A stretch of DNA of 41,853 nucleotides from NCBI GenBank assembly GCA_902573865.1, contig CACGLI010000006.1:1-41853 (forward strand), given 5' to 3'. This document shows positions 9,914 through 32,425 of this stretch, one piece after another. Made by a program: the position numbers and the translations under genes. Below the pieces are notes generated by a model that worked only from the letters and a program-made list of their open reading frames with translations, was not told the DNA's origin and made no database searches. Within the stretch, counting starts at the first letter, position 1; the number at the start of each line of letters is the position of its first letter. Origin of the DNA: an uncultured Pelagibacteraceae bacterium. Lineage in GTDB: Bacteria > Pseudomonadota > Alphaproteobacteria > Pelagibacterales > Pelagibacteraceae.

Positions 9914-9990
9914 TGGTGCGCCTGCTAGGATTTGAACCCAGAACCTCCTGGTCCGTAGCCAAGCGCTCTATCCAGTTGAGCTACAGGCGC
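9914..9990 (-). tRNA. tRNA-Arg (anticodon ACG)
   Basis: The reverse complement folds as a complete cloverleaf: 7-bp acceptor stem GCGCCTG/CAGGCGC, D arm GCTC/GAGC, anticodon stem CTTGG/CCAGG around loop CTACGGA (anticodon ACG at 34-36), and T arm with GTTCAAATC. Discriminator A and a genomically encoded CCA end at 9914-9916. It decodes CGN codons through inosine at position 34 and so depends on TadA. A 63-codon frame across this region is only the tRNA read as protein. Confidence 0.97.
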
Positions 9991-29326: not shown

Positions 29327-29665
29327 ATGACTTATTATGTAAAAGATGAATGTATCAAATGTAAACTAACAGACTGTGTTGAAGTATGTCCAGTTGATTG
29401 TTTTTATGAAGGTGAAAATATGTTAGTTATAAATCCTGACGAATGTATTGATTGTGGTGTATGTGAACCTGAGTGTCCTATTGATGCTATAAAACCAGAT
29501 GTTGATGATATTAAAGATAAAGAAAAATGGGTATTGATAAATAAAAAGTATTCTGCAATATGGCCGAATATTACTAAAAAAAAAGACCCTATGAAAGATC
29601 ATGAAAAATTTAGGAAAATTAAAGACAAATTTAAAAACCACTTTTCAGAAAAACCAGGAACATGA
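29327..29665 (+). CDS. fdxA: seven-iron-type ferredoxin
   Basis: 112 residues. The N-terminal [14 protein letters not shown] and the later [12 protein letters not shown] give the cysteines for one [3Fe-4S] and one [4Fe-4S] cluster, as in FdxA of Azotobacter and alphaproteobacteria. The C-terminal extension (about 60 residues) is usual for this group. A soluble low-potential electron carrier; partners unknown. Its stop overlaps the carD start by 4 bp (ATGA). Confidence 0.92.
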
Positions 29666-30333
29666 TTAAGAAACGGAAAAAAACTAAAAAAAAATTAAAA
29701 AAAAAAATTAAAGCTAATGTTAAGAAAAAAATTGCATCACAAGTATCGCAAGCTAATACCGAAAAAAAGACAGCAGCAGATACAGATCAAAAACCCGTAA
29801 TCACCAAAATTAAGAAGCAAGCTACAGAAAAGAGAATATATAATTTAAAAGACTTTGTAGTTTATCCAAAACATGGGGTAGGTAAGATTATTGCAATAGA
29901 AAAAGCAAAAATTGGACAAATAGATATTCAGTTCTATAAAATACTAATAGAAAAAGAAAAATTGACTTTAACTATTCCGATAAATCAACAAAGTAATTTA
30001 AGACCAATTTCATCAATAAATCAAATTAATAAGTGTATATCTATATTAAAAACAAAACCGAAAATTAAAAGGACTATGTGGAGCAGAAGAGCTCAAGAGT
30101 ATGATCAAAAAATCAACTCTGGAAAAATTTATGAATTAGCTGAAGTGGTTAAGGATCTAAATAAAAATAGTGACATAATTGCCGATCAGTCTTATTCGGA
30201 AAGACAACTTTTTGAAAAAGCTTATGAAAGACTTAAATCTGAATTTGAAGCTGTTCTTGCTGTAACTTCAGATGAAGTTAAAAAGAAAATGGATAAGGCT
30301 TTGGGTAGATTAAATCTTGCAGAGGAGCAATAA
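29662..30333 (+). CDS. CarD/CdnL family transcription factor with long Lys-rich N-terminus
   Basis: 223 residues. Residues 1-60 are highly basic and low-complexity ([10 protein letters not shown] type), followed by the CarD RNA-polymerase-interacting Tudor-like domain starting at [13 protein letters not shown] (about residue 67) and a helical DNA-binding C-terminal domain with the expected Trp (MWSRRAQEY). CarD binds the RNA polymerase beta subunit and stabilises open promoter complexes. The basic extension makes it longer than typical CdnL (about 165-170 residues). Last gene of the helicase operon; the bidirectional terminator begins at its stop. Confidence 0.92.
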
Positions 30334-30335
30334 AA

Positions 30336-30369
30336 AAACGCCCTTTTAACAATCATTAAAAGGGCGTTT
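30336..30369. terminator. bidirectional intrinsic terminator between carD and the small basic ORF
   Basis: Perfect 14-bp stem AAACGCCCTTTTAA/TTAAAAGGGCGTTT (30336-30349 with 30356-30369), 6-nt loop. In the minus direction it is followed by a long U-tract; in the plus direction only by the stem's own UUU. So it serves the minus-strand gene best and carD more weakly. Confidence 0.9.
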
Positions 30370-30382
30370 CTAAAAAGAAAAA

Positions 30383-30448
30383 CTATCTTCTTCTTCTTCT
30401 TTTTTTAGCTTTTTTCTTTTTTTTAGCTTTTTTTCTTCTTTTAGCCAT
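30383..30448 (-). CDS. 21-residue Lys/Arg/Ala-only basic peptide
   Basis: The ATG complementary to 30446-30448 opens a 22-codon frame ending in TAG. After Met the product contains only Ala (3), Lys and Arg (17), in repeats of the A-K-K type ending in five Arg. A Shine-Dalgarno AGGGAG lies 6 nt before the ATG, and the intrinsic terminator at 30336-30369 lies 14 bp past the stop, so this looks like a complete small transcription unit. The -35-like TTGACA at 30521-30526 (minus) has no good -10. Likely nucleic-acid-binding, like histone H1-type tails; that is an inference from charge only. Low-complexity A-runs could mislead, hence moderate confidence. Confidence 0.6.
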   Translation of the reverse strand: MAKRRKKAKKKKKAKKRRRRR

Positions 30449-30536
30449 CTTATCTCCCTGTTGTAAAACAAATCTTTGTGATTCGTTTTGTTATTTAAGC
30501 TTTAATTTTTTTTTCTTTAATGTCAAACACAAATTA

Positions 30537-30613
30537 ATTGCTTAATTTTTTTAAAAAATTTAATTTTTATTTATTTTTTAATAATTTTTTAAAATTTAAA
30601 AAAAATAAGCAAT
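30537..30613. repeat. 19-bp imperfect inverted repeat in AT-rich spacer
   Basis: Arms ATTGCTTAATTTTTTTAAA (30537-30555) and TTTAAAAAAAATAAGCAAT (30595-30613) match at 18 of 19 positions across a 39-nt, almost pure A/T, spacer. A further TTAAGCAA plus AATTAATT at 30626-30640 can pair with the same left arm extended outward (30531-30545). It lies between the acyl-CoA ligase stop and the small basic ORF start, both on the minus strand. This could be a weak terminator or leader structure; the rest of the gap (30449-30657) shows nothing else. Confidence 0.5.
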
Positions 30614-30657
30614 ATCAATGTTTATTTAAGCAAATTAATTAAGTTTTAATTTAATTT

Positions 30658-32334
30658 TTAGTAAAGATTTTCAAGTTGTTGTTTATAATTTTTAATTATT
30701 TCTTTTCTTTTTAACTTTAAAGTTGGTGTCAACATTCCGTTTTCAACTGTAAATTCTTCATTAATTATTACAAATTTTTTAATTTTTTCTATTAAAGTTA
30801 AACTTTTATTTGTATTTTCAATTGTAAGTTTAATTTTTTCTTTAGTAATTTCCTTTTCACTTACAATTAATGCGACTAAATAATTTTTTTTATCTCCATA
30901 CACAAAAGATTGCTTAATATTTTCATTTAAACATAAAATATTTTCAACTTTGCTTGGAGATATGTTATCTCCACCAAGATTTACAATAATATCTTTTTTT
31001 CTATCAGTAATTTTTAAATAATTATTTTTATCTAGTTCCCCTATATCTCCAGTATGAAGCCATCCATCTTTAATTGCTTTTTCTGTCTCTTCTTTTAAAT
31101 TCCAATATCCCAACATAACGTTTTCACCTTTTATAAGAATTTCTCCATCTTCTGCTATTTTCACTTTATTTGTTCTAAATGGTGGTCCCACCGATTCGAC
31201 TTTAACTAAATCTGGTAAATTGCAGCTTACTACCGGGGAAGCTTCAGTTAATCCATAACCTTGAAGGGTGGGTAGACCTACAGCATTTAAAAACTCTCCA
31301 ATATTTTGATCTAGAGCCCCTCCCCCAGATACAAAAGCCTGGAGATTGCCACCGAATTGATCTCTGATTTTTTTTCTTACTAATTTTTCACATAAAAGAT
31401 TTATGATTTTTTCACCCAAACTTAATTTTTCCTTTTTGAGGATTTTTTTTCCTAAATTTAAAGTTTGATTTATAAGTTTCCTTTTAAGTCCTGATTGTTT
31501 CTCAAAATTCATATTTATTTTTGTAAAAAGGTTTTGATAGAATCTTGGTACAGCAGTCATGATTGTGGGTTTTGCAACTCCCATATTAGAAATAAGTTTT
31601 TCTAAACTTTCAGCATAGAAAACTTTTGCTCCAACTATAATTTGTATAAATTGAACTGTATGCTCATAAGAATGTGATAAAGGTAACCAAGTCAAGAATA
31701 CTGGATTTTTTTTTGAAGTTAATGTTTCTAATAATTCAACTGCACCCTCACAGTTTGATAAAATACCTCCATGGCTTAAAACAACACCTTTAGGATTTCC
31801 TGATGTTCCTGAGGTATAAATTATGCAAGCAGGCATATTTCTCTTTAAATCTTTATTTACTATTTTGTCATTAATTGCTTCATCTAATATTTCTTTAATT
31901 AATAAACTTTCTGTATCTATTTTTTCAAAGGATATTATTTTTTTAATATCACTATTAATAAACTTTTTAATTTTATTGAATTGATCTTGATTTGAAACAA
32001 ATATTAATGAGGGCTTACAATCATTTAGGATATATTCATAATCGTTTGCAGAATAAGTTGTAAAAATAGGAACTGAAATTCCCCCAGCATTCATAATAGC
32101 AATATCTGTCATTAACCAATATGGTCTATTCTCAGAAAGTATTAAACATCTATCACCTTGTTTTATTAGCGATTTAATCTTTGTGGTAAGTTTAAAAATT
32201 CTTTCAGTTATATCTTCCCAATTATAAGTTTGCTTATCTGGTTTTAACCATTTTAAGAATGGTCTTTTGCCGTCAACTTCTTCTGTTTTTCTGAAATAAA
32301 GTTCAACTAAGCTATTTAATTTTTTTATTTCCAT
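30658..32334 (-). CDS. long-chain fatty acyl-CoA ligase (AMP-forming)
   Basis: 558 residues, adenylate-forming family. Motifs: YTSGTSGNPKG (P-loop, about residues 173-183), GYGLTEASP (about 350), GWLHTGDIG (about 420) and DRKKDIIVNLGGDNISPSKVEN, typical of long-chain acyl-CoA synthetases. It uses ATP to join a fatty acid to CoA at the membrane surface, feeding beta-oxidation or phospholipid synthesis. The length and C-terminal form fit the FadD15-like group. No beta-oxidation genes besides the thiolase are in this window. The tRNA-Leu lies 4 bp upstream of the start codon region. Confidence 0.92.
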   Translation of the reverse strand: MEIKKLNSLVELYFRKTEEVDGKRPFLKWLKPDKQTYNWEDITERIFKLTTKIKSLIKQGDRCLILSENRPYWLMTDIAIMNAGGISVPIFTTYSANDYEYILNDCKPSLIFVSNQDQFNKIKKFINSDIKKIISFEKIDTESLLIKEILDEAINDKIVNKDLKRNMPACIIYTSGTSGNPKGVVLSHGGILSNCEGAVELLETLTSKKNPVFLTWLPLSHSYEHTVQFIQIIVGAKVFYAESLEKLISNMGVAKPTIMTAVPRFYQNLFTKINMNFEKQSGLKRKLINQTLNLGKKILKKEKLSLGEKIINLLCEKLVRKKIRDQFGGNLQAFVSGGGALDQNIGEFLNAVGLPTLQGYGLTEASPVVSCNLPDLVKVESVGPPFRTNKVKIAEDGEILIKGENVMLGYWNLKEETEKAIKDGWLHTGDIGELDKNNYLKITDRKKDIIVNLGGDNISPSKVENILCLNENIKQSFVYGDKKNYLVALIVSEKEITKEKIKLTIENTNKSLTLIEKIKKFVIINEEFTVENGMLTPTLKLKRKEIIKNYKQQLENLY

Positions 32335-32338
32335 AATA

Positions 32339-32425
32339 TGGTGGGCGAAGAGAGACTCGAACTCTCACAGTATTGCTACCACCGGATTTTGAGTCCGGCG
32401 CGTCTACCAGTTCCACCATTCGCCC
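32339..32425 (-). tRNA. tRNA-Leu (anticodon CAA)
   Basis: The reverse complement is an 87-nt class II tRNA: acceptor GGGCGAA/TTCGCCC, discriminator A and encoded CCA. The anticodon stem CCGGA/TCCGG surrounds loop CTCAAAA (anticodon CAA, reading UUG), with a long variable arm and T arm with GTTCGAGTC. It lies 4 bp upstream of the acyl-CoA ligase ATG on the same strand, so processing of the tRNA would generate that mRNA's 5' end if co-transcribed. Confidence 0.97.

Follow-up and report, generated by a model that had tools for sequence, protein, structure and literature searches.

A peptide of 21 residues, rich in Lys and Arg, is very probably the product of a real and strongly conserved small gene of SAR11 bacteria, as judged from comparison of the locus across relatives. 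The gene was analysed in a stretch of 41,853 nucleotides (referred to as the window) from an uncultured member of the Pelagibacteraceae, the SAR11 family, of which the assembly measures 846 kb and is 70% complete. It appears to constitute a transcription unit of a single gene, with a disordered polycation as its product, most likely a sequence-independent coat of DNA, a reading to which about half of our confidence is assigned.

The locus and its product

The small open reading frame (ORF) is located between two larger genes, and the following features were recognized.

29662 to 30333, forward strand: carD, the convergent neighbour, with the Pfam domains CarD_TRCF_RID and CarD_C and a Lys-rich N-terminal tail
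30334 to 30371, reverse strand: intrinsic terminator, T run on the strand of the small ORF
30383 to 30448, reverse strand: small ORF, translating to MAKRRKKAKKKKKAKKRRRRR, with a TAG stop
30454 to 30459, reverse strand: Shine-Dalgarno sequence AGGGAG, 5 nt before the ATG
30465 to 30489, reverse strand: 5'-leader hairpin of 10 pairs, AAAACGAAUC-CACAA... GAUUUGUUUU
30521 to 30526, reverse strand: TTGACA, a -35-like box
30658 to 32334, reverse strand: AMP-binding ligase (Pfam), upstream of the small ORF on the same strand

The original prediction described a 21-residue peptide composed of Met, Ala, Lys and Arg only, preceded by an AGGGAG Shine-Dalgarno sequence, and both agree with the reverse-strand translation of 30383-30448 and with the signal at 30459-30454. 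The peptide MAKRRKKAKKKKKAKKRRRRR carries 10 Lys and 7 Arg residues, and thus 17 positive side chains, and has a mass of 2.74 kDa. The predicted terminator is likewise present and its U-tract is oriented for the ORF, but it begins 11 bases past the stop and not 14. The ligase and the small ORF are separated by 209 bp, a gap that contains the TTGACA box, and the ligase was matched in all 58 ORF-bearing loci of at least 5 kb.

Survey of relatives

Orthologues were sought with carD as anchor, by taking the stretch downstream of this gene in related genomes. Among 118 family genomes searched, 95 gave a carD match and one place was read in each, including G030 and G060, which have two carD places each; the 23 genomes that had no carD match, six of which belong to the same genus as the window, fell outside the ORF survey. 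The ORF was intact in 92 of the 95, cut by a contig end in two (G055 and G014) and frameshifted in one (G006), which amounts to 92 intact copies in 93 complete family genomes. The 92 include L208, which starts with GTG and has GGGGG in place of GGAG as its signal; L214, like L208, has an intact ORF on a retrieved piece without carD. Sister-family genomes with carD numbered 24, of which 23 were read (G139 was left out), yielding 20 intact and 3 cut copies. Named carD loci kept for comparison numbered 80, the best of which is 95% identical.

All collections together, which overlap, comprise 207 loci, and the ORF is intact at 197 of these, or 176 when counted as distinct by sequence; the other ten are nine contig-end cuts and one frameshift. 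Each of the 197 intact ORFs has an ATG start and an upstream GGAG, extended to GGGAG in 189, and the distance from the ORF stop to the carD stop is 35-70 nt. Frameshifts in close relatives had been named beforehand as evidence against a coding function, and the single frameshifted copy among 198 complete loci is that of G006 (L115). Its frame from the ATG encodes 47 aa, of which the first 20 are basic, and then runs past the usual stop; inspection by eye points to one base in an A run, and this frameshift may be either a sequencing error or a true loss.

Codon-level selection

The pattern of substitutions among relatives shows the ORF to be under codon-level selection. The 41 nearest ungapped ORF pairs differ by 93 substitutions, 58 of which are at third codon positions, and 60 of the 93 are synonymous compared to 23.7 expected from random placement. 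None of 20,000 simulations reached 60 synonymous changes or more, and when the reading frame of these 93 changes is shifted by +1 or +2, 1 and 25 of them, respectively, count as synonymous. Synonymous-biased change with a kept start, Shine-Dalgarno sequence and frame was what the original prediction had proposed to look for in related genomes, and it is borne out by these values and the 197 intact loci. A chance ORF is ruled out, since ORF and Shine-Dalgarno sequence are intact at 197 of 207 loci and synonymous changes are in excess. Among 24 loci that encode one identical protein, 22 also have identical DNA.

Codon choice within the ORF is also distinctive. The longest A run has a mean length of 7.2 (maximum 9) versus 10.1-10.9 in random synonymous recodings, with the Lys codons placed so that A runs are broken. 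AGG is used for none of 543 Arg codons in the small ORFs, versus 40 of 323 across 15 larger ORFs from the window and 25 of 217 in a ribosomal-protein stretch of G036, a genome of the same genus, and the count for GCT is 199 of 225 in the small ORF versus 101 of 216 in the ribosomal-protein stretch. The latter is a 12-kb stretch with 24 ORFs, for which L2 served as anchor and the others were named by eye, at least two of them looking non-ribosomal; an L2 search of the window's own incomplete genome did not find the gene. The codon bias was initially considered as a general signature of high expression, an explanation that was dropped because the bias is absent from the G036 stretch. For the same reason, the bias looks like a guard that shields an A/G-rich message from slippage or false Shine-Dalgarno sites.

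Putative promoter, leader hairpin and terminator

The original prediction proposed a real transcription unit, and in agreement with this the -35 box, leader hairpin, Shine-Dalgarno sequence, start, frame and terminator appear conserved across the order. TTGACA is encountered in 148 of 163 distinct upstream regions, compared to 5.0 expected by shuffling, and in 158 of the 163 TTGAC lies 39-41 nt before the CGAATC of the leader hairpin; this constant distance suggests that the hairpin and the expected 5' end are only a few bases apart. The -10 region departs from the E. coli consensus, and a promoter scanner applied to the locus found no promoter, with 2.0 expected in shuffles.

The 5' arm of the hairpin is the nearly invariant CGAATCA, found at most 60 nt from the ATG in 156 of the 163 distinct upstream regions, while the 3' arm varies along with the paired side; the ATC of CGAATC is paired in 156 of the 163. 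For 88 distinct arm pairs the native mean is -8.30 kcal/mol, versus -6.87 when arms are swapped between loci (sd 0.16 over 200 shuffles, the best reaching -7.31), which supports, but does not prove, compensation between the arms, as relatedness contributes to the contrast between native and swapped pairs. A shifted stem, ATCACTTAA/TTAAGTGAT or ATCACATAA/TTATGTGAT, is found in loci of genera g5, g7, g9, and g12, with CGAATCA unmoved.

The hairpin is a possible protein- or RNase-facing element. Its pattern has a single match in the 70%-complete assembly, at the small ORF, and the hairpin was rejected as the mark of a shared regulon on this basis. A search of 12 relatives with a less strict pattern yielded 14 matches, spread over 8 genomes; 8 of them are at the small-ORF locus in 6 genomes, where two nearly palindromic sites were each scored once per strand, and the remaining 6 are elsewhere. 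The latter, of the form ACGAATCA...TGATT and away from carD, are L252 (G040), L255, L261, and L262 (G026), L256 (G027), and L257 (G003); L257 and L255 are identical in sequence.

Downstream of the ORF, at 30371-30334, a terminator-like stem of 17 pairs is followed by a T tail, and one such stem was found versus a mean of 0.1 in shuffles. Scoring of exact stems performed poorly across relatives, as 53 of 153 distinct spacers lack an exact stem of at least 6 pairs, and T-run lengths were used instead: of the 153 spacers, 144 carry a T run of at least 5 on the strand of the ORF and 49 on that of carD. Leader hairpin and terminator would bracket and protect an mRNA of approximately 165 nt.

These RNA features raise the alternative that the RNA itself, as a small regulatory RNA or a stable leader, is the functional product and the ORF incidental. 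The conserved leader hairpin and strong terminator are consistent with such a role, and the 166-nt strand folds better than its shuffles (z -5.63), a value for which the two hairpins alone may account. A conserved RNA structure accompanied by no codon bias had been named in advance as evidence against the coding reading; the hairpin, however, is not part of the ORF, which itself is under codon-level constraint. The synonymous excess, the avoidance of long A runs, the single frameshift in 198 complete loci and the Shine-Dalgarno sequence before every intact ORF, as well as the lack of an Rfam family at gathering score in the small-ORF region when the whole window was searched, render this alternative highly improbable. 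The 30300-30700 region gave 20 sub-threshold Rfam matches, most of them over the terminator. The only Rfam matches in the window at gathering score are two tRNA genes on the reverse strand, at 9917-9990 and 32342-32425.

Length variation and origin of the short form

Among 90 family genomes, six genera encode proteins of 19-25 aa and five further genera proteins of 20-58 aa, distributed as follows.

g1: 21-24 aa, 15 genomes
g2: 22-23 aa, 15 genomes
g3: 19-23 aa, 11 genomes
g6: 20-21 aa, 4 genomes
g8: 24 aa, 1 genome
g13: 22 aa, 1 genome
g4: 23-35 aa, 18 genomes
g5: 20-32 aa, 10 genomes
g7: 29-32 aa, 2 genomes
g9: 29-41 aa, 8 genomes
g12: 34-58 aa, 5 genomes

The 76 intact named loci encode 20-25 aa. 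In the sister family (20 genomes) the protein has 40-91 aa with AAPKKK and KPAKK repeats and reads MEELKVIFAKARKKAKKKAAPKKKRKAAKRKPAKKK..., and the forms of g12 are of the KPAAKKKAPAKK type. Seven long forms of at least 40 aa contain 48-53% Lys, 20-26% Ala, and 5-9% Pro. At the same convergent place, the longer forms thus read as Lys/Ala(/Pro)-rich proteins of 30-91 aa that resemble the tail of histone H1, and they are expected to be disordered. Short and long forms are likely one orthologous gene on the basis of position, leader and terminator, as low-complexity sequence alone is no proof of orthology. With the sister family as outgroup, at 40-91 aa, the short form would be the derived one, and together with the composition of the long forms the length series makes the 21-mer look like a miniaturised H1-tail-like polycation.

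Small basic ribosomal proteins such as eL41, bTHX, bS22, and bL37 are of fairly fixed length and sequence. The peptide is likewise short and strongly basic, and could be a ribosome- or RNA-bound mini-protein, i.e., a SAR11-specific ribosomal peptide or an RNA chaperone. Its length of 20-25 aa in the window's own genus, its Lys/Arg/Ala composition, the conserved head and tail of an ORF intact in nearly every complete family genome, and the very little change in DNA among loci with the same protein are in line with such a function. The family spans 19-91 aa, however, with repeat-like expansion that is unusual at a fixed ribosomal site, its codon usage is unlike that of the ribosomal-protein stretch, and the 21-mer matched none of the solved chains with E-values up to 10, although phmmer is weak on such composition. 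We consider a ribosomal or RNA-binding role unlikely, but still a serious competitor. Such variation in length would be easier to reconcile with a disordered polycation than with a component that occupies a single fixed site.

Database and literature searches

No Pfam or NCBIfam model matches the 21-mer, and three long forms had no match in either collection with E-values up to 1; the composition correction of HMMER disfavours such Lys/Ala-rich sequences. An 85-mer gave one match to the solved chains, called L29, at chance level (E 0.57) in a phmmer search that is weak on this composition.

In other Alphaproteobacteria, a composition filter near carD yielded no convincing ORF in 37 loci (28 and 9) drawn from 121 non-SAR11 genomes with carD. 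Two Arg/Pro-rich ORFs that passed the filter, L161 and L163, were rejected as they lack a Shine-Dalgarno sequence and the Lys/Ala character. A pattern combining the Shine-Dalgarno sequence with MAKxRKKA matched 3 of 385 alphaproteobacterial genomes, all Pelagibacteraceae, and none of the 380 others; this pattern is strict enough to overlook diverged forms, and 2 of the set's 5 SAR11 genomes, in which the ORF begins with MPK, escaped it. Among the matches listed in a search of the open-access literature by title and beginning of the abstract there was no paper on the small ORF, and the available parts of two SAR11 papers (PMC2704228 and PMC5069720) do not mention the locus.

Putative function

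A peptide of 21 residues that bears 17 positive side chains should bind polyanions, and nucleic-acid binding is predicted from its composition. It would stay unfolded and neutralise phosphate backbones; its most likely role would be that of a nucleoid peptide which, alongside HU, coats DNA irrespective of sequence. SAR11 strain HTCC1062 carries hupA (PMC2704228, Table 1). The original prediction held that the product could coat nucleic acid or ribosomes; the longer H1-tail-like orthologues would make nucleic acid the natural target, and it is these relatives that favour DNA coating. The favoured order of preference is therefore a DNA coat beside HU, followed by a ribosome- or RNA-bound role, followed by other polyanions or a partnership with CarD.

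Hc1 and HC2 are bacterial histone-H1-like proteins rich in Lys, Ala, and Pro. The forms of the sister family and g12 (AAPKKK, KRKPAKK) are likewise Lys/Ala/Pro-rich, a property they share with these two proteins and with the C-terminal domains of AlgP and PhaF as described in the available part of PMC9239181, where the AlgP C-terminus is reported to be KPAA-rich, DNA-binding, disordered and likened to histone H1. Disorder and charge would be alike in the long forms and the H1-like proteins. In contrast to the latter, the small-ORF family lacks a folded N-terminal domain, measures 19-58 aa in the Pelagibacteraceae and has no Pfam or NCBIfam match, and the 21-mer is proline-free and rich in Lys, Arg, and Ala. 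The product may thus resemble an H1-tail-like protein in its mode of working, but it is not filed as a member, because no profile matches it and its DNA binding is putative. Protamines are also very short Arg/Lys polycations with a terminal Arg run; in contrast, the gene described here is bacterial, the first part of its product is Lys-rich and condensation is not indicated, and no homology is claimed.

Binding of other polyanions (polyphosphate or membrane), or a partnership with CarD or RNA polymerase, would be a further explanation. AlgP, which is H1-tail-like, localises to polyphosphate granules (PMC9239181, available part), the small gene adjoins carD in both sampled families of the order, and SAR11 CarD also has a Lys-rich N-terminal tail in the five proteins read, such that carD and the small ORF would both encode H1-tail-like polycations. 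As the argument is one of neighbourhood only and the small ORF is convergent with carD, not co-transcribed with it, this explanation is considered improbable.

CarD of the window has 223 aa and a shorter Lys-rich tail than five other SAR11 CarD proteins of 255-298 aa (L132, L133, L134, L155, and L157; e.g., MPKKTKAKSKKVVKKKVTKKVVKK...). Elsewhere in the assembly, an ORF that looks acetyl-CoA-synthetase-like by eye (L266:1-1530, reverse strand; G000:C11 near 20111) has a GTG start preceded by GGGGGGA and an in-frame Lys/Arg-rich beginning, MPKRKKRKKKAKPKKRKSQRNKTKKRKFKRLKLKKKS, which is the only run of 8 ARR codons found by pattern in this assembly.

Biological significance

The peptide may be hard to see for gene finders as well as for trypsin-based proteomics. 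Trypsin undercounts the Lys-rich AlgP and PhaF (PMC9239181, available part), and would cut the small-ORF peptide into fragments of few residues, so that standard proteomes could not have excluded the peptide.

SAR11 bacteria rank among the most abundant in the ocean and serve as a model for genome streamlining. A gene kept in nearly every SAR11 genome examined, whose product consumes the nitrogen-rich residues Arg and Lys where the ocean is poor in nitrogen, must pay for itself. Returning to the preferred reading of a DNA-coating peptide, streamlining would have cut the protein to a near-bare charge block of which the MAKRRKK-type head and Arg-rich tail were kept. We tentatively propose, with clearly less than even confidence, that it is a bacterial protamine of approximately 21 residues, streamlined step by step from an H1-tail-like protein and made from a hairpin-capped mini-mRNA of its own, which would be the smallest dedicated chromosome-packing protein so far described in a free-living cell. 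From 91 down to 19 residues, the family would provide a graded natural series in which an H1-tail-like polycation is pared towards its minimum, by which the minimal sequence for a nucleic-acid-coating protein becomes testable.
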